DNA of 64,000 nucleotides, from contig NZ_CP014606.1 in the NCBI RefSeq assembly GCF_001584725.1, positions 1,455,501-1,519,500 on the forward strand, in the 5' to 3' direction. Position numbers and translations under genes: made by a program. The DNA is from an endosymbiont 'TC1' of Trimyema compressum (lineage in GTDB: Bacteria > Bacillota > TC1). Positions 1,226 through 61,590 of this stretch are shown one piece after another (position 1 is the stretch's first letter; every line of letters starts with the position of its first letter). The notes under the pieces are model-generated. The model did no database searches, had not been told where the DNA came from, and was given only the letters and a program-made list of their open reading frames with translations.

Positions 1226-3163
<1,938 letters not shown>

Positions 3164-3185
3164 TTACCATTTTTTCCCATTCTAT

Positions 3186-3191
3186 ATTATA
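3186..3191 (-). promoter_or_regulatory. Probable -10 box of the gyrBA promoter
   Basis: A perfect TATAAT on the minus strand 41 bases before the gyrB start. No good -35 box is seen 16-18 bases upstream, so this is a partial promoter call. Confidence 0.4.
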
Positions 3192-3305
3192 CCATAAAAA
3201 GGGGGAAAAAGACAGTTTTTAGATAGAGTAGATTGATAACATTTCCCTTAAACAGTATGTTTCTGTGCCTATCTTCAAAAAATCTCAATATTCTCTCTAT
3301 ATCTA

Positions 3306-3334
3306 TTGACGCATAGTATCAGCAAATGTATAAT
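3306..3334 (+). promoter_or_regulatory. Sigma-A type promoter of the padR operon
   Basis: TTGACG at 3306-3311, a 17-base spacer and TATAAT at 3329-3334. The predicted transcript starts near 3341, just ahead of the AAAGGAGG ribosome binding site at 3342-3349. Confidence 0.75.
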
Positions 3335-3357
3335 AACAATGCAAAGGAGGTATTTAA

Positions 3358-3678
3358 ATGGAAGTGGGTAGTCAACTTAAAAAAGGTTTTTTAGATATGT
3401 CAGTTTTAGCTATTCTAAAAAGGAATGACTCATATGGTTATAGCCTTATTCAAGAAATGAAAGCATTAATTGAAGTACCAGAATCAACACTTTATCCCAT
3501 ACTAAAAAGACTTGTAAATAAAAAATATTTAAAATCTTACTCAAAAGAACATAATGGTCGACTCCGTAAATATTACCAAATCACAGCCTTGGGAATTGAG
3601 CATCTAGATGCCTCAATTAAAGAATGGCAACAATTAAAAATTATAATTGATACCATGTCAGAAAAGAAAGGAGATTAA
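3358..3678 (+). CDS. PadR-family transcriptional regulator
   Basis: DNA-binding repressor of 106 residues, the usual short PadR length. The winged helix carries the family hallmarks: LKRNDSYGYSLIQEM in the first helices and PESTLYPILKRLV in the recognition helix, followed by a wing with GRLRKYYQIT. It starts at ATG behind a perfect AAAGGAGG. The next gene (3683) encodes a HAAS/DUF1700-type protein. PadR plus HAAS is a common Firmicute pair in which the second protein is a membrane partner controlled by the first. PadR is intact while all three genes downstream are broken. Confidence 0.9.
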   Translation: MEVGSQLKKGFLDMSVLAILKRNDSYGYSLIQEMKALIEVPESTLYPILKRLVNKKYLKSYSKEHNGRLRKYYQITALGIEHLDASIKEWQQLKIIIDTMSEKKGD

Positions 3679-3682
3679 TATT

Positions 3683-4207
3683 ATGACAAAGTATGGTTTT
3701 TTACAAAAACTAGAAAAATTGCGCATTTCCCTAAAGAGGATCAAAATGAAATACTCTTTTTTTCGAAGAATGTATTTCTGATGCTGAAGACACAGGAGAA
3801 ACAGAATCCTCTTTTATAGATAAAATTGGACCAATTAATGAGCTTGTAAAAAAATTAGAAAAGGATTTATATGCAGGAGCCTATTACACCTGCTCATAAC
3901 TGGGCATTAATTAAAGAAAGTTTTAAAAGTCATAACACTTTTACAAAAACCTCAAAGTTCTTTTTTTAGCTTCTGCTCTAATTTCTTTGGTAATAGCGCT
4001 GATTGTAGACTTTTTTATAATAAAAAAATATTTTTATTATGCAGAGATATATACTATTATCCTGAACTAGGATTAAGATCAATCATACCCAAAATTGCTT
4101 TTATGCTAATAGGATTGGGCTTTGTACTTCTTAGTCTCTACATTCTAATTAAAATAATTGTTTTCTTAATTACGTATTTTGGAAACAAGATTAGGAAAGA
4201 ACGCTAA
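3683..4207 (+). pseudogene. HAAS-domain (DUF1700-type) membrane protein, frameshifted
   Basis: When frames are joined, the N-terminus reads MTKYGFLQKLEKL, then AHFPKEDQNEILFFFEEC, then SDAEDTGETESSFIDKIG, then ELVKKLEKDL. This is the helical HAAS domain usual next to PadR. It is followed by two hydrophobic segments (about 3960-4020 and 4090-4180) and a basic end, IRKER. Shifts are needed near 3730, 3765, 3890, 3965 and 4040. Several fall in T or A runs. The start overlaps the padR end by ordinary operon spacing (4 bases). Family assignment rests on the pattern and the neighbour. Confidence 0.7.
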
Positions 4208-4222
4208 AGGGAGGAATCATCA

Positions 4223-5115
4223 ATGATAAAATTTCAAAAGCCAATACTCTCTATTATTATGGTTATAATAATTACAGGTGCAATCCGCTTTAGGAACCAC
4301 CTATGTTATCTTCGGAGGTGAAGCAATAGAGTGTAGTCTCTATACAAGAGAACCTTCAATTGAATTAAGGAATTCTAAATCACCCATGCCGAAGGTAAAT
4401 ATAGAAACGCTAAATGAAAAAGAACAACTTCTCTATAAAATGCTTAATTCCATTGATTATTATGAAACACTTGAAGCAACTACTAAGCACCACTATATCG
4501 ACGAAATGGAAGATAGAACTATATTAACAAAGTTTTCAGTAGACAAATTAAAAAAATCTAGTTTAATGAAAGATTGGAGAAATGGAGTAGACGCATCAAA
4601 AACATTAATTCAAAATGATGAATGTATTACCACCTTTGACTTCGATAACTCCTATATTAAAAGTAATCTTTTCAATAAGGTTGATTCCTTTGAAGTCCCT
4701 GTTGATGATAATTTCATTAAAGTTCTTCATCCTAATGAAAGAAAATATCCTTATACTGAGCGAATAGGTTATCCTTTTTTAGTAAGTTCTGTACAGCCAA
4801 TAATAAATAATTGTGACTTGCTTAATGAACTAATTTTAAAACAAGAAGAATGGGTAATTCAAAATCAAGTAACCTATCTTAATAGAACGTGCTTTTTAAT
4901 CAAAGGAAACCTAACACTTTATACTAATAGTACGATTAGTCAAATTGAGATACTCATAGATAAAGAAACTTGGTTTAATACTAAAAACAGAATTTTATGA
5001 TAATAATCATAAAATTGCTAGTTTAAATATAGTAACTGAATTAAAAATCAATGAGCCAATAGCACCAGAAACCTTTACTTTAGACGTAACTGGTTATACA
5101 AAAATTGAAAAATAA
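4223..5115 (+). pseudogene. Secreted LolA/RseB-like protein, copy 1, frameshifted
   Basis: Starts at ATG after GGAGG with one N-terminal hydrophobic helix (IIMVIIITGAI). A single shift near 4277 joins it to a 240-codon body, and another near 4970 leads to the tail FYDNNHKIASLNIVTELKI, ending in VTGYTKIEK. The body has the beta-sheet pattern of LolA/MucB-type sigma-factor regulatory or lipoprotein carrier domains: VTYLNRTCFLIKG, then ISQIEILIDKETW, then a polar tail. Such proteins often accompany PadR/HAAS or sigma/anti-sigma genes; the exact role is unknown. It is paralogous to the next gene. Confidence 0.6.
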
Positions 5116-5132
5116 TGCAAAGGGGGTAAATT

Positions 5133-6064
5133 ATGAAAAAATATCTAAAGGTTTATTAATATCTAGCACCTTACTGATTTTAATTAGTTTTATTGCATTA
5201 TTAGCTAACTATTTTTTTACAAAACAAGCTACTATATTACTGGCAGTATCTATAATAAGGTGCCAAGTGAAGAAGCTTCGCTTTCTAAAAAGTCTGATAG
5301 TGATTTTGAAAAAGCAGTTTATGAAAACTTAGGTGAAAAAGATAAGATACTTTAAAGATAAGATACTTTATAGAATGCTTAATACTAAAGATAAATTTAC
5401 AACACTTACAGCAAAAACAGAACTTTCTTTCTATACTGAACCTGATAATAAACCTCGCAAAAACTATATTTATAATAAGGATATAATGATAGGCCAAAAT
5501 ATAAAAAAGTCTCTCTATAAGTTATTTTGAGGGCTCGCTTAATTTTATAAGATTAGGTGAAGAAGATGAATATAGCTTCTATGATCCCCAAGATAAACGT
5601 GTTATAAAAGAATCTTATGAAAAGAATACTGACACAGACCTTAACCTGAAGCCTGCTAAATCAGATGATTTTATTCGCTCCTTACAACCAAAGGATCGAA
5701 TAAATATACTTCATAATAGGAAAAATATAGAATATTTCCCCAAAGACAATATCCAGTTTCTTTGTGATGAATATAGTTATTTAGAAAAAATGGTTAGAGA
5801 TAAAGAAAGCTGGATGATTCTCGAGGAAACTACTTATTTGAATCGAACTGTTTATCATATAGTAGCTAGAGCAACTGATGAAAGACCATGGGTAAGTAAA
5901 ATTAGCCTTATTGTAGATAAGGAAACAGGACTGGTTTTAGAAAAACAGAATATAATAAAAATAATGAAGTTTGTTTATCTAATAAAGTAGTAAACTTACA
6001 ACTTAACCAAAATATTGATAGTAATATTTTCCAAATAGATTATGATAAATATAAAATTAATTAA
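5133..6064 (+). pseudogene. Secreted LolA/RseB-like protein, copy 2, frameshifted
   Basis: Tandem paralogue of the preceding gene: TTYLNRTVYHIVAR, then VSKISLIVDKETGLVLE, and the tail QIDYDKYKIN. The AAAAAA after the ATG is one base short of the frame that encodes the membrane anchor ISKGLLISSTLLILISFIALL. Further shifts are needed near 5240, 5350, 5525 and 5950. Same inferred role and same uncertainty as copy 1. It ends 11 bases before a terminator hairpin. Confidence 0.6.
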
Positions 6065-6074
6065 AAAATAGTAG

Positions 6075-6105
6075 AAATGAGTTCTGTAATACACAGAGCT
6101 CATTT
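6075..6105 (+). terminator. Intrinsic terminator of the padR operon
   Basis: AAATGAGTTCTGT and ACAGAGCTCATTT form a stem with one G-T pair and a 5-base loop, followed by TAGTTTT. The next 230 bases up to the feo promoter show no gene. Confidence 0.7.
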
Positions 6106-6340
6106 AGTTTTCCATTGAAAAAACCTTTTCAGTTTATCAGCTGGATTTGAAGACTACTCGCTCTTACTCAACAGTCTGCTTATAAAAAATTTATCCCTTA
6201 GTATTTATTTTGAAATCAGATTTTAGTGATTGTATACCTAGGACACAACTAAAAATTAATTGGATACATTAAGAAAAATCTTAATGTATTTTCAATGTTC
6301 TTCATTTTTAATATATATAACATCAATTAACTTAGAAACC

Positions 6341-6370
6341 TTGACAGTAGGCTGTTTATGGTGCTAAACT
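6341..6370 (+). promoter_or_regulatory. Probable promoter of the feo operon
   Basis: Consensus TTGACA at 6341-6346 and TAAACT at 6365-6370, 18 bases apart. It lies 32 bases before the chosen start of the DtxR-FeoA gene. No clear DtxR-type inverted repeat was recognised over it. Confidence 0.5.
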
Positions 6371-6401
6371 TTTTATAGGACGAATGGAAAAGAGGTATAT
6401 A

Positions 6402-7073
6402 ATGGAAAAACTCAACATTAAAAATCAAGATTTACTTGAGGCCATTTATGAAATGGAAGTGTTAAATGGAAAAGCGCGTTTAACGGACGTAGCTGCCAAA
6501 CTTGAATTCTCCAAATCCAGAGCCAATCAGGAAGTTAAAAAGCTTAAAAGTATGGGTTTAGTTGTAGAGGAAAAATATGGACCTTTACAATTAACCGATT
6601 TAGGAAAATTCGAGGCAGAAAGAGTAGTTTTTACTCACCAGCTAATTAAAACTTTTTTAATTCGCATTCTTAATGTTGAAGAGGATGTTGCAGAGAAGGA
6701 TGCTTGTGCAATTGAACATGTCATCAGCGAAGAAACAATTCAAGCCATTGTTAATCAATTGGAAAAAGTAACCGACTCAATTGGTGAATTTAGCTTAAAA
6801 GAAGCTGAAGGATACTTAATTAGAAAAAAGAGATTAAGCGAGCTAAAAATGAATAAAAAAGCTAAAATTCTTAAGATTCAAGGTGGCCGTGAAATGAAAA
6901 AACGGTTAATGGAAATAGGCGTTATTAAAGGTGAAATTGTTCAACTTGTAAGCATTGCTCCTTTTGGCGATCCATTAGAATTCGCTATTAATGATTTCAA
7001 GCTTTCTTTACGTTTAAAGGAAATAGATAACATTATAGTAGAACTTTTAGAGGAGGAGCTTTATGGAAGATAA
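6402..7073 (+). CDS. DtxR-family metalloregulator fused to a FeoA/SH3-like domain
   Basis: Iron- or manganese-sensing repressor, about 223 residues. The N-terminal winged helix reads LLEAIYEME, then LTDVAAKLEFSKSRANQEVKKL. A metal-binding/dimerisation helix (EKDACAIEHVIS, about 100-115) follows. The C-terminal 70 residues are FeoA-like: REMKKRLMEIGVIKGEIVQL, then PLEFAINDFKLSLRLKE. An upstream in-frame ATG (6384) lies before the AGAGGT ribosome binding site, so ATG 6402 is chosen. It overlaps feoB by 11 bases. No separate feoA exists here, so this C-terminal domain may serve both sensing and FeoB partnering (inference). Confidence 0.88.
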   Translation: MEKLNIKNQDLLEAIYEMEVLNGKARLTDVAAKLEFSKSRANQEVKKLKSMGLVVEEKYGPLQLTDLGKFEAERVVFTHQLIKTFLIRILNVEEDVAEKDACAIEHVISEETIQAIVNQLEKVTDSIGEFSLKEAEGYLIRKKRLSELKMNKKAKILKIQGGREMKKRLMEIGVIKGEIVQLVSIAPFGDPLEFAINDFKLSLRLKEIDNIIVELLEEELYGR

Positions 7074-9060
7074 AAAAATTGCATTAATTGGTAACCCAAA
7101 CAGTGGAAAAACCACTATTTTTAACGGACTAACAGGTTCCTCATCAAAAGTAGGTAACTGGCCAGGTGTTACTGTTGAAAAAAAAGAAGGAAAACTTGTT
7201 GGGCAAAAAGGAGTTAGTATTATAGATTTACCAGGTATCTATAGTTTAAGCGCTTATTCGGATGACGAAAGAGTTGCAAAAAATTTTTTACTGAAAAAAC
7301 CTGATTTAGTAGTTGATGTTATTGATACCTCAAATCTAAAAAGAAATCTCTATTTAGCAATTCAATTATTAGAAATGAATCAACATTTAGTTATGGCTTT
7401 TAATATGATGGATGTAGCTGAAAAAAAATATGATGAAATTAACTTTGAATTATTTAGTCAGCTTCTAGGTGTTCCTGTAGTCCCTATTACAGTCCATAAA
7501 AAAGAGGGTATTGAAGAATTAACACAAATGATTGTAGCTACTACAGAAAAAGAACATGTAGAATTCAGATTACCCTATGGAAATGAATTAGAAGAACATT
7601 TATGTATTTTAGAAAATTTATTTAAAAGAAAAGAAGTTTCCATTCCAGGTCATACTTGTAGGATGCTTGCCATTGCTGCTTTAGAAGGCAATGAAATTAT
7701 CCATAAACTGCTAGAGCCCTATGATGTTTTAGATACTATTAAGAAAGAAATTGACCATCTTCAAGGAATTTACCATGATGATTTAGAATCTATATTCATT
7801 GAACAACGTTATGGTTTTATTGAAGGCTTAATTAAAAGAACAGTTGTCAGAAAAAGACAGATTGAAAAATCTTTAAAATTCTCAGACAAAGTTGATAAAA
7901 TTGTTTTACACCCAGTAGCTGGATTGTTAATATTTTTTGGCGTTATGTTTCTTGTCTTTCAAATTTTATTTACAGCGGGAGACTTTATAAAGGGCTTTCT
8001 GGAAATGGGCTTTGAAAATCTCAGTATCTGGGTTGGCAATACCATTCCCAATTACTTAGCAGTATCCTTTATTAATGATGGTATTATAGGTGGTGTTGGT
8101 ACCATTATTACTTTCCTACCTAACTTAATCCTCATGTTTTTGCTCCTAACTTTCTTAGAAGACGTAGGCTATATGTCAAGAGCTGCATATTTAATGGATC
8201 GTTTTATGCGCTTCTTCGGTTTACAAGGAAAAGCATTTATTCCTTTGATTACAGGATTCGGTTGTTCAGTCCCAGCTATTCTAGCAACTAGAACACTTGA
8301 AAATAAAGCAGACAGAATGACTACTATTATGGTAGCTCCACTTATTTCTTGTAGTGCAAGACTACCTGTTTATTTACTATTTGTTTCTGCCTTATTCCCA
8401 GTAGCTCAACAGGGAATAGTATTATTTTCAATTTATATTCTAGGTATTATATTGGCTGTAATTATGGCTAAAATTTTTAAATCAACAATCTTCAAAGTGG
8501 ACAATACTACTTTTGTTTTAGAATTGCCTCCTTATCGAATTCCAACTGCAAAAGCAACTTGGATTCATTCATGGGAAAGAATTAAAGACTTCCTCTCAAG
8601 AGCAGGTACATTAATCTTGGCAATGGTAATTATTGTATGGGTTCTTTCCGCACTGCCTCTAGGTGTTGAATATGGTTCAGAACAAAGTATTATAGGTCAA
8701 ATTGGTGCCTTTATTGCACCAATTTTCACACCAGTAGGTTTTGGCAACTATGCAGCATCATCTGCACTTATTGCAGGTATTGTAGCTAAAGAAGTAGCAG
8801 TCTCCACTTTAGGCACTATTTATGGCGCAACTGGCGGTGGCTTAGTAGAAGTAATTAGTACTCAATGGAGTGCCATTCAAGCCTATTCATTCATGGTAAT
8901 GAGTGCTATCTATGTTCCTTGCTTAGCTGCACTTGCTACTATAAAAAAGGAAACTGGTAGCTTTAAATGGATGTTTTTTGCAATGGGCTATACATTAATA
9001 CTCGGTTACATTGTTTCTCTAATCATATATCAAGGTGGCCTACTATTAGGTTTAAAATAA
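7063..9060 (+). CDS. feoB: Ferrous iron transport protein B
   Basis: GTP-dependent Fe(II) importer in the cytoplasmic membrane, 665 residues, full length. N-terminal G domain: GNPNSGKT (10-17), DLPG (55-58), NMMD (114-117). The membrane part has two Gate-type repeats (GFGCSVPAILATRTLENKAD and IAGIVAKEVAVSTLG). The start follows AGGAGGAGC and overlaps the regulator gene, so the two are translationally coupled. A small Cys-rich partner gene follows. Confidence 0.96.
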   Translation: MEDKKIALIGNPNSGKTTIFNGLTGSSSKVGNWPGVTVEKKEGKLVGQKGVSIIDLPGIYSLSAYSDDERVAKNFLLKKPDLVVDVIDTSNLKRNLYLAIQLLEMNQHLVMAFNMMDVAEKKYDEINFELFSQLLGVPVVPITVHKKEGIEELTQMIVATTEKEHVEFRLPYGNELEEHLCILENLFKRKEVSIPGHTCRMLAIAALEGNEIIHKLLEPYDVLDTIKKEIDHLQGIYHDDLESIFIEQRYGFIEGLIKRTVVRKRQIEKSLKFSDKVDKIVLHPVAGLLIFFGVMFLVFQILFTAGDFIKGFLEMGFENLSIWVGNTIPNYLAVSFINDGIIGGVGTIITFLPNLILMFLLLTFLEDVGYMSRAAYLMDRFMRFFGLQGKAFIPLITGFGCSVPAILATRTLENKADRMTTIMVAPLISCSARLPVYLLFVSALFPVAQQGIVLFSIYILGIILAVIMAKIFKSTIFKVDNTTFVLELPPYRIPTAKATWIHSWERIKDFLSRAGTLILAMVIIVWVLSALPLGVEYGSEQSIIGQIGAFIAPIFTPVGFGNYAASSALIAGIVAKEVAVSTLGTIYGATGGGLVEVISTQWSAIQAYSFMVMSAIYVPCLAALATIKKETGSFKWMFFAMGYTLILGYIVSLIIYQGGLLLGLK

Positions 9061-10625: not shown

Positions 10626-11648
10626 ATGAAAGGATTTTATAAAGAATTAGCCTCTTTAAATGGCGGTAAAAAGTCAGTTGCATTAACAGGTCTCTCTGGG
10701 CAACTAAAAAACAAAAAAGGTCTCTATGAAAGCAATGTTTGGATTGCTTCAGATTTTGATAGCAATACAATGAATATAATAGAAGAGATACTCCCTGAAA
10801 GAAAAAAAAGCGGCTTAATTACTGTAGGTAATGACTTAATATATCTTGAATTTATTTTTCCAGAATCTGAGATAATAATTTGTGGCGCAGGTCATGTTTC
10901 AATTCCAATCATTAAAATTGGTAAACTCTTAGGTTTTAAAACAATTGTTATTGATGATCGTCTTTCCTTCATAAATGAAGCTAAAAAAGCTGGTGCTGAT
11001 GAAGTCGTCTGTCAGACTTTTAATAGCGCATTAGAAAATATTAAAGGAACTCCAAACAGCTATTTTGTCATTGTAACAAGAGGTCATCGTCATGATCAAC
11101 TTTGTTTAAAAACGATTCTTCAAAAAGAAAATAACTATATTGGCATGATTGGCAGTAAAAGGAGAGTTTCCATTGTTTTCCAAGAACTTATAAATAATGG
11201 CGTCAATCCTCAATCTTTAGAAAAAGTCCATTCTCCAATTGGTTTAAATATAGGTGCCCAAACACCAGAAGAAATAGGTCTTTCTGTTTTAAGTGAAATT
11301 GTTGCTGTAAAAAATCAAAGAGTTTCAGGTGAAGGGTTTACAAAAGAATTATTAAAGGCTATTAATGAAAGTGATGCAAGAAAAAAAGTCTTAGGAACTA
11401 TTGTTTTTAAAAAAGGATCAGCACCTAGAGGTGTTGGCAGTAAAATATTAATTTATGAAGATGGCTCTATTCAAGGAACTATTGGTGGTGGCTGTGTAGA
11501 ATCTGATGTTATTTTAAAGGCTATAGACTATAGTAAAAATAATCAATCAGAATTATTAACATTAGACTTAACTGCAGAAGCTAGTGCTGAAGAAGGTATG
11601 GTTTGTGGTGGTGTTGTTAAAGTCTGGCTGGAAGCAATAAATCAATAA
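10626..11648 (+). CDS. XdhC/CoxI-family molybdenum hydroxylase maturation protein
   Basis: 340 residues. A Rossmann XdhC domain comes first (EIIICGAGHVSIPIIKIGKLL, about 84-103, then VIVTRGHRHDQ and GMIGSKRR). The XdhC/CoxI domain sits at the C-terminus (TIVFKKGSAPRGVGSKILI, IQGTIGGGCVESD, and MVCGGVVKVW with its Cys). The order is the reverse of classical XdhC but is known in some anaerobe proteins of the Se-dependent molybdenum hydroxylase group. No molybdenum enzyme is in this window. A second, broken XdhC gene lies at 58.0-58.5 kb. Confidence 0.82.
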   Translation: MKGFYKELASLNGGKKSVALTGLSGQLKNKKGLYESNVWIASDFDSNTMNIIEEILPERKKSGLITVGNDLIYLEFIFPESEIIICGAGHVSIPIIKIGKLLGFKTIVIDDRLSFINEAKKAGADEVVCQTFNSALENIKGTPNSYFVIVTRGHRHDQLCLKTILQKENNYIGMIGSKRRVSIVFQELINNGVNPQSLEKVHSPIGLNIGAQTPEEIGLSVLSEIVAVKNQRVSGEGFTKELLKAINESDARKKVLGTIVFKKGSAPRGVGSKILIYEDGSIQGTIGGGCVESDVILKAIDYSKNNQSELLTLDLTAEASAEEGMVCGGVVKVWLEAINQ

Positions 11649-11662
11649 ATACATTATATAAT

Positions 11663-11696
11663 AAAAAAGCACTGGATTTTTATCCATTGCTTTTTT
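11663..11696 (+). terminator. Intrinsic terminator of the xdhC-like gene
   Basis: AAAAAAGCACTGGAT, TTTT, ATCCATTGCTTTTTT: stem with one internal mismatch and a T run on both strands. It also faces the minus-strand operon that ends at 11709. Confidence 0.8.
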
Positions 11697-11708
11697 ATAA
11701 CTTCTTTT

Positions 11709-12415
11709 TTACTCTTCAGTTGATTCTTTCTTCTTACTTTTCTTAAATAACATTACCAAAATTCCTATAATAATTATTGCTGAAAAGGCATATAAAAATA
11801 TTTTAGCTGAACGGGTAATCTGTTGCCCAAAATAGGAATAAAGAATCGTTGCTGGAATTTGCCCTAATCCTGTAGCAATAAAAAAGCTAGGGAAGGACAT
11901 GCTGGTTAAACCAGCAGCATAGCTAACAATATCAAAAGAAATAAAAGGAATAAGGCGAGCAATTAAAACAGCATGATTTCCATAACGCTTAAAAAGGCAT
12001 CTTTTTTATCCAATGCTTTTGCACCAACAAATTTCTCTCCTACAAGTCGACCATATACGCGAGTAATATAAGAAACACAAAACTGCGCCTAACATAGCTC
12101 CTGTCCATGATATAACGGCACTCCAAGCCCAATCATAAATCCAAGCATTGGCAAATGTAATGAGAAATGCTGGCAAGGGAGCCAACACAGACTGAAAAAT
12201 CATTAACAAAATAGAGATGATAGGTCCCCATGGACCTGCCGCTAAAATATATTCTTTAATCCCTCCCAAATTCAGTGTTGCAAACAAAGATACTATATAA
12301 TAGTATAGTTCACTTCATTTCTAACAGCTGGCACCAATAAATAAATAGCTGCTAGAATAAGAATACCTATAGTAACAGTAATAATTTTTTTAGTCTGCTT
12401 CGATAATTTTTTCAT
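11709..12415 (-). pseudogene. TVP38/TMEM64 (YdjX-like, DedA-superfamily) membrane protein, frameshifted
   Basis: Joined frames give an N-terminal helix (MKKLSKQTKKIITVTIGILI), then GPWGPIISILLMIFQSVLAP, then the SNARE-associated core motif GNHAVLIARLIPFISFDIVS, then LGQIPATILYSYFG and a basic Glu/Lys tail. This is the usual 220-240 residue layout of the family. Shifts near 12295, 12085, 12005 and 11905. It overlaps the preceding gene by TAATG. Together with the YdjY-domain lipoprotein it recalls the enterobacterial ydjXYZ cluster, whose function is not settled. Confidence 0.75.
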
Positions 12416-12827
12416 TAAACTCTCCTTGCTTTACCTAGTCTATTTTTAATTAATGCCCATAAAGATAGACTGGTTCCAATAACTAAAATAGTTATTGGAA
12501 TTATATTCATGTTCTTAAGTGTTAAATCTAAATAAATTCCATCTCTGAATAAACTACTAGGAATTGTTAAAATTGGACTCAGACTGCCATAAATGACTAA
12601 AATAGTAGCTAGTAAAATTCCTTCTAAAAAAGGAGTAGTAAAGGTTTAATGCCATTGATTTTAATTGATATAAACACGCCTACTAAGGTGAATAAAGGAA
12701 TCAATAAGCCAATATTAAAACGCATAGACAACCAAACCCATTGACTTAAGGCTATGCTAAAAATCATCCCCACTATAATTCCACAAATACCATAATACAA
12801 ACCACTTTGCACTTTATTGCCTATCAT
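12415..12827 (-). pseudogene. Small integral membrane protein of the ydjXY-like operon, frameshifted
   Basis: Four probable membrane helices: SGLYYGICGIIVGMIFSIAL, IGLLIPLFTLVGVFISIKI, then after a shift near 12640 GILLATILVIYGSL and NIIPITILVIGTSLSLWALI, with basic tail KNRLGKARRV. I do not recognise the family. It overlaps both neighbours by TAATG, so it belongs to the same translationally coupled operon. Confidence 0.6.
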
Positions 12828-13500
12828 TATTTTTTAGAAAAAATTATAGCAACATAAGTTCCATCCTCAGGTAAGACAGCTTCATTGCCATTAAAACAAC
12901 TTCTTTTTTCTTCTACTGCCCCATAAGTATAAACAGCATTACTAGTAATACCAACTGGACAACTATCTAAACACATAATACATCCTGTTTTTTATCTTTA
13001 GCAGTTGCTAAATTACCACCGAAACGAATATCTAATTTTTCCCCATTACTGTCTTTAATGGCCTCATCAATAGAAACAGTTTTAACTGTGGAGCCTGTTA
13101 CCCAAGTGATTTTCACATCTAATGAATCACCACTTACATGTTTTGTTGCCTTATTTTCCGGAGTAATATTATTGCCTGGTTGAGCACCAATTGCAATTAA
13201 ACCATTATAAAAATCTATAAAAATCTTCTATATTACCATAGGTTTTAAATATAGATTTAGAGCCATTGCCACCGTCTCCGTTAACTGCTCCATGTCGTGT
13301 ATTTTCTGTTAAGAATTTTCCATTGGCTGTTCCTAAAATAGTAACTGTACCTTTTTCTTTATTAACTGCTACTGGTGTTTCTAAAGATACATTTTCAACA
13401 CTATCTTGTTTTTCTATTGTTGCTGTTTTGCTTTCGCTACTACAACCAAATAATAGAAAAGCGGATAATAATAAAATTGCAATTGTTAAACCTTTTTCAT
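12827..13500 (-). pseudogene. YdjY-domain lipoprotein with a CxxxC motif, frameshifted
   Basis: Lipoprotein signal LLLSAFLLFGCSSES with the lipobox cysteine. The body has YdjY-type features: GTVTILGTANGKFLTENTRH, then GLIAIGAQPGNN, then VKITWVTGSTVKTVSIDEAI, then CLDSCPVGITSNAVYTYGAV near the C-terminus. The run after the ATG is AAAAA where AAAAAA would keep frame. Further shifts near 13220 and 12985. Possibly a redox protein at the outer face of the membrane (inferred from the cysteines). First gene of the ydjXY-like operon. Confidence 0.7.
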
Positions 13501-13658: not shown

Positions 13659-14072
13659 TTAATACTTTTTATCATAAAAAACAGAAAAAACTATTAATAA
13701 AATACTTTGAATTATAATGGCTCCTACAACTAAAAGTGAAGGAATAAAATAGTATAAATAGATTAAAATAATTCCAATAAGAGCTAAAACAACTAGCATA
13801 ACCATATTTGTTGTCCATGCTGCACTTCCACGAACGGCTATATTTCGTTCATCTTTAAAATCAATTTCTCTTTGTTTTTGGGCTTCAGAACTTAGTGTAA
13901 GTAATGTAATTAGTTTAATGAAAGCATAGGTTCCTAAAGATGCTCCCGAAATAAGAATAGCCGGCATAACCAGAGGCAAAGCACCTGTATTTTTTAGATA
14001 AACGCCAACGAATGTTAAGCCAATACCAATAATCAATAAAATACTATGTATAGGTAATTTTTTGTTTTTCAT
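13659..14072 (-). CDS. Membrane protein, DUF2178/DUF6442-like, paired with an XRE regulator
   Basis: 137 residues, four membrane helices arranged two and two around a cytosolic loop. The loop EAQKQREIDFKDERNIAVRG contains the KDERN signature of this small family, known as the membrane partner of a neighbouring Cro/C1-type regulator. The ATG overlaps the stop of the upstream regulator (TAATG), a coupled toxin-like or sensor pair. Intact. Function unknown. Confidence 0.65.
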   Translation of the reverse strand: MKNKKLPIHSILLIIGIGLTFVGVYLKNTGALPLVMPAILISGASLGTYAFIKLITLLTLSSEAQKQREIDFKDERNIAVRGSAAWTTNMVMLVVLALIGIILIYLYYFIPSLLVVGAIIIQSILLIVFSVFYDKKY

Positions 14073-14274
14073 TATGCTTCTTCCTCCTTATAAATAAATA
14101 TTTCTTCAATAGTCAAATTAAAATATTTAGATATTTTAAACGCTAATAAAATCGAAGGATTATAGCGTCCATTTTCAAGAGAGCTAATGGTTTGCCTAGA
14201 CACTTCTAAAGCCCTTGCTAGTTCCTCTTGAGTTACTTTTTTTCAACTCTAATTGCCTCTAATCTATTATCCAT
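14072..14274 (-). pseudogene. Short XRE-family regulator, one-base frameshift
   Basis: MDNRLEAIRVEKK breaks at TAA. Adding one A to the AAAAAAA run restores VTQEELARALEVSRQTISSL, then ENGRYNPSILLAFKISKYF, then LTIEEIFIYKEEEA, a 67-residue helix-turn-helix protein of the YozG/DUF2178-partner type. ATG 14274 has AGGAGG at a 7-base spacing. The only lesion is in a homopolymer, so an assembly error is a real alternative to inactivation. Confidence 0.75.
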
Positions 14275-14366
14275 ACTCATCCCTCCTGACGTAAAGTTAG
14301 CTTTACATAATAAAAATACCACATAGAAGTTATTCTGTCAAGCTACATTTACATTTCAAAGAAAAT

Positions 14367-57562: not shown

Positions 57563-58038
57563 TCATATAATTCCCAATTGGTGACTTTTTCTTGCCCAAA
57601 AGCAAACATCTTCTTTAAACTTTAAAACCCCAAGGCAAGGTTTTTCTCCTTCAAGTAATTTAAGTGTTTCTCTTTTAAAAACACTTAAAAATAATTCAAC
57701 ACCACCTATTTCGTCTAAGAAAATAATTTTCTTATTACTGGTCTGGGCCTTTTGAAGAATAGCTAGTCCCTTTTCTTCAAAAACTGCTAATTTCATCTTA
57801 AACCCACCATCAGTTTTATCAATAAATATATCCTTATCATTTTTTTCATAATGATTGACTAAAATAGGATTTGAAATTTCTTCAATATCCCGTAAGGCAA
57901 ATGCAACGCACCTGCAATCTTTTAAAAGCCTTTGAACACAAAAGCCTCCAAAGCAATCAATATAAGGTTTAATCATTTTAAATAGCAGTGTTGATTTTCC
58001 CATTTGTTTTGATCCTTGAAGAAAAAATGCCTCAACAT
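57563..58038 (-). pseudogene. THEP1-type nucleoside triphosphatase, frameshift in the P-loop region
   Basis: ATG 58038 reads MLRHF, then a T-run shift near 58020 gives FLQGSKQMGKSTLLFKMIKP, a Walker A motif. IIFLDEIGGVELF is the Walker B, followed by the cancer-related NTPase/THEP1-like end (KPCLGVLKFKEDVCFWARKS). It overlaps the XdhC gene upstream by 7 bases. Such NTPases accompany molybdenum-hydroxylase accessory genes in some anaerobes. One lesion only. Confidence 0.65.
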
Positions 58039-58549
58039 ATTAAATCATCCCATTTCTTTTTTATCATCTCAGCAGCAATACTAATGGCAATTTCCCCCGG
58101 GGTTTTGCCACCTATTGCTAATCCAATAGGTGTAAAAATACGTTTTATATCACCATAACTAAAGCCCTCTTTCTGCATAAGCCTATCCACATTCTCAACA
58201 CAAACTGTTACTGAAAAATCTATTCTACTAAGAAAAGGAACTAAATTTTAACAAATATGCCCACCGCCAAAAATAAAGGCTCTATCACAGTTAATAGGTT
58301 CACTAAAAAAGTTCTACCCTCATGGTTAATTAACAAAGACCTTCTTTGAACTCTTAAAAAAATGATAAGTCATCTTTCGAATCTCTATCAATAAAAAACA
58401 ACTTCCATTGACCCTCATCTAAAATCTCTGTTACTAACCATCCATATCTTCTGCTTATACTCTCAATAATTTCCAAAAAAGGGATTCATAGTCTTTACAA
58501 TTTCCATATTTAGCAGTTTATTGTAGATACAATGATAAATCTTTTCCAT
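58032..58549 (-). pseudogene. XdhC-family protein, frameshifted
   Basis: MEKIYHCIYNKLLNMEIVKT, then ISRRYGWLVTEILDEGQW, then RAFIFGGGHIC and VPFLSRIDFSVTVCVENVDR, then IFTPIGLAIGGKTPGEIAIS, then IAAEMIKKKWDDLIC. The C-terminal Rossmann half of XdhC is clear. Shifts and stops near 58490, 58360, 58310 and 58250. GGAGG precedes ATG 58549. It is shorter than usual, with most of the N-terminal CoxI domain missing. Confidence 0.72.
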
Positions 58550-58715
58550 CGTTAAACCTCCTTTAGTGCTATTTAAGCAATACTAAACAATTATTATCAA
58601 TTAAAAATATTTTTGTAATTTTTATTATTGTAAAAAGCAAAAATTGTCATCTTTTACTCTGTTATATAATACAGTTCAGATTATATAGTCAAAAAATATT
58701 TTTGTCAATTAAAAA

Positions 58716-59027: not shown

Positions 59028-60930
59028 CTACGAGTAGCCAGCCACTGGAATTACGCAGATATAGTTGCCCTTTCCCCATGAGATATCTTCTCCAAAGGCT
59101 CTAAAACAATCTGCGCACATACATGCCCATGAGACATGATTCAATAATTTACCATCAATCATGTATTTCTCATCTTCGAACGAGCATTTACATATATCAC
59201 ATTCATCAGGTGCACCATCAAAATATAGATTATTCTTTTTTGCAAAATCCATGTCGACCAGTTCGTCCAGCGGCAATGTAGATGAGCTTCCGTCTATAAA
59301 GTTTCCGTGATCTCTCAGCTCAATTTTTGTGTTGATTTGGCGCACTAACTTTTCATTACTCTTTAGATACTCAGTAAAAAGGGTAACTATATCAGTTGGT
59401 TCTCAAACTCTCCACTTATCATCACTTAGCTTAAAAAGACAAGGCTTTCATTTGTCTTATCACAGCGGAAAGAACGGTATTGAACTCCCAAATCTTCAAT
59501 TATGTCGCTATCGCGAGAGTCTTTTCCACCACATGTAGTAGAAAGTAGAAGGGCATTTAAATTGCCATCATAGTATTTATCAAGTATTTGAGGGAAAGTG
59601 TTAGCGCTTCGCCATTTTTTCAAGTGCCCCAAAATATATTCTATCGCCATCAGAATTGTGAATAATGATATGATAAGAGGGCAAGTATATAATTCCATTT
59701 TCTTTTGTTGTTGCAAAGTAGACTGTGAACACCCCGGTACAGGGATTGAAAATTGATACCTTAATTTCTGAGTTTAGAAACTCATCTTGAATATCTTCAA
59801 TAATTCCAATTATATGAGTCTTCCATACAGGGTTTTCAGACAAACAAGAAGCTATTTCATTTTTGAGGATTTTAACATGTGCCACATTATTGACAAAAAT
59901 TGTTTTTTGAACTTTTGCCCAGTAGAACCATCTTCACCCAGTAATTCAGAAATAATAACTTTATCTTTCAATAAGGTATTCCTTGCAAACGAACAATGCC
60001 GAAGTATGTTAAGAATTTTGCAGTTTCGTGAATCAACAATTTTTCCAAATTTAGCAGCATATCCTATTTCATGATAATCACTTTTGGGGCAAGGTTCCAT
60101 CGCACTTACGCTTTCATGGAGATAGCATAGCGCTTCCTTATCCTCCATATCAGAAAGAATCTCCTGAAATTCTGCCATTACATCCTGGTTCTGATTAAGT
60201 ATTCGCAAATATTTTTCTTTTTGTAAGCGTTGTGCCCCAGTATACGCAATATATTCATGTACAGGTATTTCTGGAAATGATAATACTTCGGACTCATCAA
60301 TTCCAGTCATTTGAGCAACAGATTTGCGCATCATAGCTTTTCGTTCTTCAGTACTCAATTCATTTTGAAAATGAAGTCTGACTAAAACATAATCATGAAT
60401 ATCTTTTTCTTGATACGCTTTTTGAATTGAGCGAACCCCGTCCTCCAGCGCAGTTATATCGCTATACCAGTACAGATCATGCCATGGAGAAATAAAACGC
60501 CCTTGTGCAGTATGCAACAGCTTAACAGGCATGCAAAGAAATCCGAACCATCATCTGATACAATTATTTTATACCCTTGCAATGGAATTGTTGTATCTTC
60601 AGAAAACCGAGAAAAAGGTACTAACAATTCACCCCATTCTGTGGATGCAATAATAACATGAATCTCCGCATCCTTTACTCCAAAATGTTGTTTTATACTC
60701 TCAACGTACTTGTTGACCTCATGCAATGCCTCACGAGAAGCAGAATTGCTCCGCTTTATTTCTATTATAACATGTTCGCCAAATTCGTTCTTCGCATAGA
60801 GATCAACAAATCCCCTTGTGCCAAATTTATTAGGTATATACTGTTCTTTTTGAGAAGAGTCAAGCCCGGCTTGAGCTTGTTTATATTTAATGAAATAAGA
60901 TCGCGCAAATCTGATTCTTTCAAATTGCAT
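59028..60930 (-). pseudogene. Large protein with NucS-like nuclease domain and C-terminal Cys cluster, broken
   Basis: Joined frames give about 630 residues. The N-terminal 110 residues look like a PD-(D/E)XK nuclease of the NucS/DUF91 type: RGFVDLYAKN (Asp43), then VIIEIKRSNSASREALHEVN (Glu57, Lys59), then IHVIIASTEWGELLVPFSRF. The middle is unrecognised (LVRLHFQNELSTEERKAMMR, then YIAYTGAQRLQKEKYLRIL). The C-terminus has CDICKCSF and CMCADCF, a likely zinc site. Shifts near 60540, 59880 and 59610 and a TGA for a likely Trp near 59395. GGAGGG abuts the ATG. Possibly a defence gene carried on an island. Confidence 0.7.
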
Positions 60931-61034
60931 CCCTCCAAAAAATTCAATTACAAATATTATATCATATACAAATATTTTCTTGTAGATGTATTTTTCTTAT
61001 GAATGTTAAATATAATGAAGAATCCTATGTTAAA

Positions 61035-61440
61035 AATATGGACATAGGAGCCCAGAGAAGTTCTATTAGATGTTGATACAATTGATTTATTGTCGAAAGT
61101 GCAATAATAGCATGATTGGTTTTAATGATGATTTTTTTATTCTTGAAAATACTAATACCCTTTCAACAACGATGGCAAGTAAAATTTACGCTAATCATAT
61201 TGATAAATCTGATATGAAATATGAAAAACTAAGATTCATGATTTCAGACATAGTCATATTTCATTTTAAATAAACATAGGTATTGATGTATTTCAGATTA
61301 CTAAGCGCGTAGGATACTCAAATGCTGAAGTGATATTCAAAATTTACGGTCATCTATGCCCTGACAAAGAAAGGTATAACTTTTTCATTCTGATTTCAGC
61401 TTCAATTAATTTTTTTAATTTATATTCATACTTTTAGGAA
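61035..61440 (+). pseudogene. C-terminal remnant of a tyrosine recombinase (integrase)
   Basis: Fragments EVLLDVDTIDLLSK, then YEKLRFHDFRHSHISF after a shift near 61237, then IGIDVFQITKRVGYSNAEVI, then FKIYGHLCPDKERYN. HDFRHSH is the R-H-x-x-R/H box and Y of IYGHL the catalytic tyrosine. The N-terminal two thirds are gone. It points at the 3' end of the adjacent tRNA-Met, the usual position of an integrase beside its attachment site. Confidence 0.72.
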
Positions 61441-61513: not shown

Positions 61514-61590
61514 TGGTAGCGATGGCAGGACTCGAACCTGCGACACTACGGGTATGAGCCGTATACTCTAACCGCCTGAGCTACATCGCC
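61514..61590 (-). tRNA. tRNA-Met (anticodon CAT), elongator type
   Basis: 77 bases on the minus strand, from GGCGATGTAGCTCAG to CATCGCTACCA with encoded CCA. Acceptor stem 7 pairs with a G-U first pair; anticodon loop CTCATAC; T loop GGTTCGAGTCC. It resembles Bacillus elongator tRNA-Met. A tRNA at this place after the S1-domain gene is conserved in Firmicutes. Confidence 0.95.

Follow-up and report, generated by a model that had tools for sequence, protein, structure and literature searches.

Among described nucleases, EndoMS/NucS (PF01939; structures 5gke and 2vld) shares with the family considered here a PD-(D/E)XK domain, matched at a sequence E-value of ~1e-5 and with the D, E and K residues kept. 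The architecture of the two proteins differs, however: the nuclease of EndoMS is C-terminal whilst that of the family is N-terminal, so that the domain order is inverted, the N-terminal DNA-binding/dimerisation domain of EndoMS is absent, and in intact family members the nuclease is followed by ~400 residues which are unmatched. The full-length NCBIfam NucS models also score far below their cut-offs (36.1 against 216 bits and 21.1 against 252 bits), and on these three grounds identity with EndoMS/NucS was rejected. The first-pass annotation had labelled the protein as NucS-type; as two of the features that define EndoMS/NucS are lacking, the label is valid for the nuclease domain but not for the protein as a whole.

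Shedu (SduA, PF14082) is likewise a stand-alone PD-(D/E)XK defence nuclease, with a core fold that matches at Z 7.4, although in SduA the aligned domain lies at the C-terminus (8ps5, residues 224-393). Identity with Shedu was rejected by Pfam, in which PF14082 (SduA_C) was hit by one of five members with an E-value of 0.019 and by none convincingly. Mrr and other type IV enzymes resemble the family in combining a restriction-type PD-(D/E)XK nuclease with a presumed recognition part and in having no methylase of their own; in the members scanned with Pfam neither PF04471 (Mrr_cat), PF14338 nor a modified-DNA reader domain was found at E<=1. PDC-S11, a single-gene phage-defence candidate in PADLOC, matches the N-terminal ~75 residues of 11 of 12 members (best E-value 2e-8), but the match ends within the nuclease domain, at profile positions ~24-99 of ~360, whereas the family proteins are 520-640 residues long with an unmatched remainder. 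No PADLOC model spans the full length of the family protein, and no description of the family was found in the literature on NucS/DUF91 and phage defence, in a search which lay outside preprints and most subscription journals. The family appears to consist of stand-alone, restriction-like PD-(D/E)XK defence nucleases, of which the searched libraries and papers seem to give no account.

A decayed nuclease gene in the endosymbiont genome

The gene lies in the window, by which we mean the whole stretch of 64,000 nucleotides analysed from the genome of an endosymbiont, 'TC1', of Trimyema compressum. The gene and its surroundings comprise the following features:

59028-60947, minus strand: pseudogene of a full-length (~640 aa) nuclease-family protein (three-frame translation, colinear tblastn, single copy)
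60550-60947, minus strand: N-terminal NucS_C-type PD-(D/E)XK nuclease domain (PF01939, invariant columns, homologue fold)
59440-60545, minus strand: middle and C-terminal part that matches no family (Pfam/NCBIfam/PADLOC, motifs, predicted structures)
59403-59405, minus strand: in-frame TGA inside the C-terminal piece
59028-59345, minus strand: C-terminal piece with a zinc-ribbon-like tail, CDIC..CMCADC (alignment, BLASTP, Cys positions)
61270-61380, plus strand: C-terminal remnant of a site-specific (tyrosine) integrase (tblastn of a 37-aa piece)
61514-61590, minus strand: tRNA-Met (anticodon CAT), a possible former attachment site (ARAGORN)

A protein of ~640 residues is spread over three reading frames of the minus strand, from ~60947 to 59028. 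In tblastn the intact Methylobacter protein matches the window in five colinear pieces, from 60873 down to 59286, with E-values down to 1e-63, and the alignment of the fragments with intact homologues is colinear over nearly the whole length, far beyond what chance would give. The bounds first assigned to the gene, 59028-60930, need to be moved, as its first ~30 residues lie upstream of 60930 in another frame, starting at ~60947. The damage had also been underestimated, at three shifts and a TGA: by translation and tblastn the frame changes at least five times (near 60.85, 60.54, 59.9, 59.62 and 59.44 kb), in addition to the one TGA. The change near 60.85 kb splits the nuclease domain. The pseudogene is present as a single copy and is the sole NucS_C match in its own 1.62 Mb genome. 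The window copy is dead. Sequencing error was considered as a source of the frameshifts and is unlikely, because five shifts and a stop are clustered within 1.9 kb, whereas the reading frames of the nearby ftsH and tilS are open.

The gene was correctly described at the outset as having a lower AT content than its flanks (36.7% GC, against 27.9 and 24.6%); as an argument for a foreign origin this does not hold, since ftsH, an ordinary gene here, has a comparable 37.7% GC, and composition is thus silent on origin.

Both the integrase-like remnant and the tRNA-Met lie 5' of the gene, a placement as expected for a decayed element. The adjoining tRNA, noted in the first-pass annotation, was confirmed by ARAGORN. 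Of the integrase remnant reported beside the gene, what stands is a piece of ~35 residues whose annotated matches are all integrases (best E=0.01, 43% identity, tblastn), though no Pfam model was matched by it. A repeat search found no second copy of the tRNA-Met end, as an attachment-site duplication, within the window. On the other side an XdhC-like neighbour (58032-58560, minus strand) has likewise become a pseudogene, in which a piece of 52 residues matches XdhC_C at 9.6e-12; NTPase_1, at 57563-58003, has an open frame. From tilS to the tRNA-Met the DNA is decaying.

The nuclease domain and the region that follows it

The PD-(D/E)XK domain proposed from the letters of the sequence was upheld. 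PF01939 (NucS_C) is matched at 26.8 bits by the nuclease piece alone and at 34.9 bits once the fragments are joined, the curated cut-off being 24, and the residues first given as D43, E57 and K59 are kept as D49, E63 and K65 of the joined frame. Together with E35 and G43 (joined-frame numbering) these are invariant across the alignment, D49, E63 and K65 having been checked in 13 aligned members. A profile search of the joined fragments and of the family, as the first-pass annotation had proposed, found NucS_C but not the Mrr models. The predicted structure of the nuclease domain of an intact homologue superimposes on EndoMS (5gke_A) with Z 14.4 and an rmsd of 2.0 Å over 110 residues; PaqCI (type IIS, Z 10) and MspJI (type IV, Z 7.2) are among the lower fold matches. 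The AlphaFold models used had a mean pLDDT of 79.9 for the Methylobacter protein and 64.1 for the Rhizobium protein.

The long region beyond the nuclease had been described as unrecognised, and so it is: over ~500 residues no Pfam, NCBIfam or PADLOC family scores above its cut-off. The family alignment shows scattered conserved motifs there (N..W, P, G.L and LGL.Y), and in the predicted structures of homologues the region is alpha/beta. In the Rhizobium model, ferredoxin-like folds are weakly matched by residues ~149-268, with Z ~6.5-8 over 75-95 residues, a range in which similarity may mean merely a common arrangement. No internal duplication of the C-terminal region was detected by hhalign.

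The CxxC...CxCxxC end on which attention was first drawn is present in the window, and the Rhizobium homologue has a similar tail, with the shared pattern CDxC...CxxC (BLASTP E=1e-5, in a single comparison). It is not a hallmark of the family: within the aligned set the cluster is common only to the Rhizobium branch, and it is thus best described, from sequence, as an optional accessory tail of putative zinc-ribbon type. The zinc-ribbon idea has a sequence basis only, as the last ~115 residues of the Rhizobium model are of low confidence.

Distribution, mobility and neighbourhoods of the intact homologues

Intact, full-length homologues of ~520-640 aa are encoded by a mobilizable plasmid of Acetobacter (35% identity over 86%) and by plasmids of Rhizobium (23% identity over 96%), with others in Pseudoalteromonas, Komagataeibacter, Acetobacter, Methylobacter, Duganella and a gammaproteobacterial MAG and, amongst the actinobacteria, in Nonomuraea, Streptantibioticus, Lentzea, Glycomyces and several Streptomyces. 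Amongst these the Komagataeibacter/Acetobacter protein has 553 aa, that of Duganella 511 aa and one of Streptomyces 539 aa. A planctomycete copy is truncated. A tree of the family groups the window sequence with proteobacterial ones (support 100/99). The genome contigs had to be searched with a three-sequence alignment, the joined window query having given no match. Within the sample of the endosymbiont's own phylum, weak N-terminal NucS-domain matches aside, a full-length match was found in one of 398 genomes, namely its own, and in none of five sampled members of its family; three other class samples gave 3/346, 1/369 and 1/260 genomes, each count including the centre genome, and a Streptomyces sample gave 3/199. 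Selection on the intact members is purifying, dN/dS amongst the Streptomyces and Lentzea copies being 0.10-0.19. Two copies showed peculiarities of their own. That of Telmatospirillum (9974-14296 of contig L016) is interrupted by a transposase ORF (11203-12837), assigned by eye as IS21-like, and resumes at ~13904-14296, whilst one Streptomyces genome (G1294) carries two strongly diverged copies, on contigs L069 and L070, one of them beside pPIWI-RE.

DNA homology of 79-97% between the Streptomyces and Lentzea copies is mostly limited to the ~1.65 kb gene and ~25-80 bp upstream of it; the flanks differ, other than in two pairs of contigs (L017/L023 and L021/L027) which share them. Several copies are carried by mobilizable or conjugative plasmids, which commonly also encode integrases, transposases and toxin-antitoxin systems. 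The gene has thus been shown to be horizontally mobile and able to travel alone, with a sparse distribution which crosses phyla. A phage origin is not supported, as phage records held no family match and viral contigs gave a single one, on one 4.1 kb IMG/VR contig.

Defence genes were found within a few kb of the family gene in 6 of about 17 contexts examined. In Duganella the genes directly upstream encode HsdR-M-S, a PtuA-like ATPase and an HNH protein; the latter two, a Septu-like pair (6989-9927 of contig L015), separate the family gene from the type I R-M operon. HsdR-S-M and a weakly HEPN-like protein lie near the gene in one Streptomyces (L017) and its relative (L023), in Glycomyces Mrr is 22 bp upstream in the company of an N6_N4 methylase, and a pPIWI-RE module with PprDinG lies near one of the copies of Streptomyces G1294. 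A CBASS-type cyclase (E=1e-87) is found near the gene on an R. leguminosarum plasmid, and a GmrSD_N/AlbA, HEC-05-like gene in Streptomyces G1235. In addition to these six, a NACHT protein adjoins the Streptantibioticus copy. In about 11 of the 17 contexts no defence gene was recognised among the neighbours scanned, as in Methylobacter, Pirellulaceae, two actinobacterial contigs (L066 and L067), Pseudoalteromonas, and the Rhizobium and Acetobacter plasmids. Some proteins near the Rhizobium copies match nothing in Pfam or PADLOC: a conserved 665-aa plasmid protein (7600-9597 of contig L022, the same gene being present in L006) and, near the R. phaseoli copy, proteins of 1438 and 674 aa (2855-7171 and 621-2645 of contig L065, both minus strand), which are possibly an unrecognised system.

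The partner genes are rare in the genomes concerned (HsdS is present once in Duganella and once in Streptomyces G401, pPIWI-RE once in G1294, and of two Mrr genes in Glycomyces one abuts the family gene). The chance of each such adjacency, calculated as 2 x distance x copy number / genome length, is therefore ~0.1% or less, a figure to be read with caution as the genes to be counted were picked after the neighbours had been seen and without matched control regions; the adjacency is strong but not formal evidence of a link with defence. The suggestion that intact homologues could form a mobile family of defence islands was borne out, since these were found to be under selection, patchy in distribution, horizontally moved and, in six contexts, adjacent to defence genes; they were neither of known housekeeping function nor always remote from mobile genes. 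As in the class of single-gene anti-phage nucleases, the homologues, though not the window copy, have intact catalytic residues and are under purifying selection, and they are found repeatedly within defence islands or on mobile elements, namely in the six contexts and on plasmids, again without a matched control.

What the family might do

The gene in the window probably once protected against phages or plasmids as a defence system of one gene, since its intact relatives, spread among distant bacteria and on plasmids, are repeatedly found beside known anti-phage systems, and descent of the pseudogene from a stand-alone defence nuclease is the explanation which we favour, with reasonable though not high confidence. 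For the family we infer an anti-phage function and DNA as the target. The C-terminal region would sense a cue of the invader, be it a foreign or replicating DNA structure, DNA ends, a modification or a molecule made during infection, and would then license the N-terminal nuclease to cut DNA, which may destroy the invader or abort the infection, in the way of other nuclease defences that consist of a single gene. As no partner gene is constant, one gene should suffice. The endosymbiont received the gene horizontally, probably along with an element that had inserted at the tRNA-Met, and the gene has since decayed. A more elaborate proposal is put forward tentatively, with rather less than even confidence: that these are new single-gene anti-phage nucleases of at least three phyla (Pseudomonadota, Actinomycetota and the endosymbiont's own, with the truncated planctomycete copy in addition), in which a NucS-type domain is controlled by a new, partly ferredoxin-like C-terminal sensor, with an optional zinc-ribbon-like tail, and responds to a trigger unlike those of Shedu, Mrr and EndoMS.

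A defence reading has to contend with the contexts that lack a recognised defence gene and with the fact that nucleases of plasmid maintenance or repair can also be mobile. The latter lead to a rather improbable alternative, in which the protein serves mobile elements and plasmids as a nuclease for repair or genome maintenance, cleaving mismatches or branches in the manner of EndoMS and having no role in defence. EndoMS/NucS is indeed the nearest relative of the nuclease domain in fold and in sequence and several copies are on plasmids, but the EndoMS N-terminal domain is missing, the domain order is inverted, the gene is very sparse even within Streptomyces (the 3 of 199 genomes above) and it is found repeatedly beside chromosomal defence systems. 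A modification-dependent, type IV-like restriction endonuclease, whose C-terminal region reads modified bases for the N-terminal domain to cut, is a specific version of the favoured explanation and in itself unlikely: it would agree with a restriction-like nuclease that stands alone and has no methylase as its constant partner, with the positions beside Mrr in Glycomyces and the GmrSD/HEC-05-like gene in Streptomyces, and with the presence of PaqCI and MspJI among the lower fold matches, yet Pfam detects no SRA, YTH, EVE or similar reader of modified bases and the trigger is not readable from the neighbourhoods.

The close, co-directional neighbours in Duganella and Glycomyces could instead suggest an accessory subunit which depends on the adjoining system, for example as an extra nuclease for type I R-M or pPIWI-RE. 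This is very improbable, given that the adjoining system varies from context to context, that in many none is recognised, and that the gene alone is what most Streptomyces and Lentzea copies have in common. This same restriction of the shared unit to the gene, at unrelated Streptomyces sites, might be expected of a selfish gene whose nuclease promotes its own spread in a homing-like manner; such a gene is highly improbable here, since the sites are varied rather than one allelic site, none was seen inside a conserved gene or an intron, and the gene recurs in defence islands.

The favoured reading remains that of a stand-alone defence nuclease, of which the window copy is a fossil of horizontal transfer; the interest lies in the family. 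Its intact homologues are compact, one-gene units of ~1.65 kb in cultured bacteria and on small plasmids, and are thus directly testable. If the family does protect against phage, it would add a widespread but rare single-gene nuclease to bacterial immunity, one in which a catalytic domain of the mismatch-repair type has been put to use in defence.
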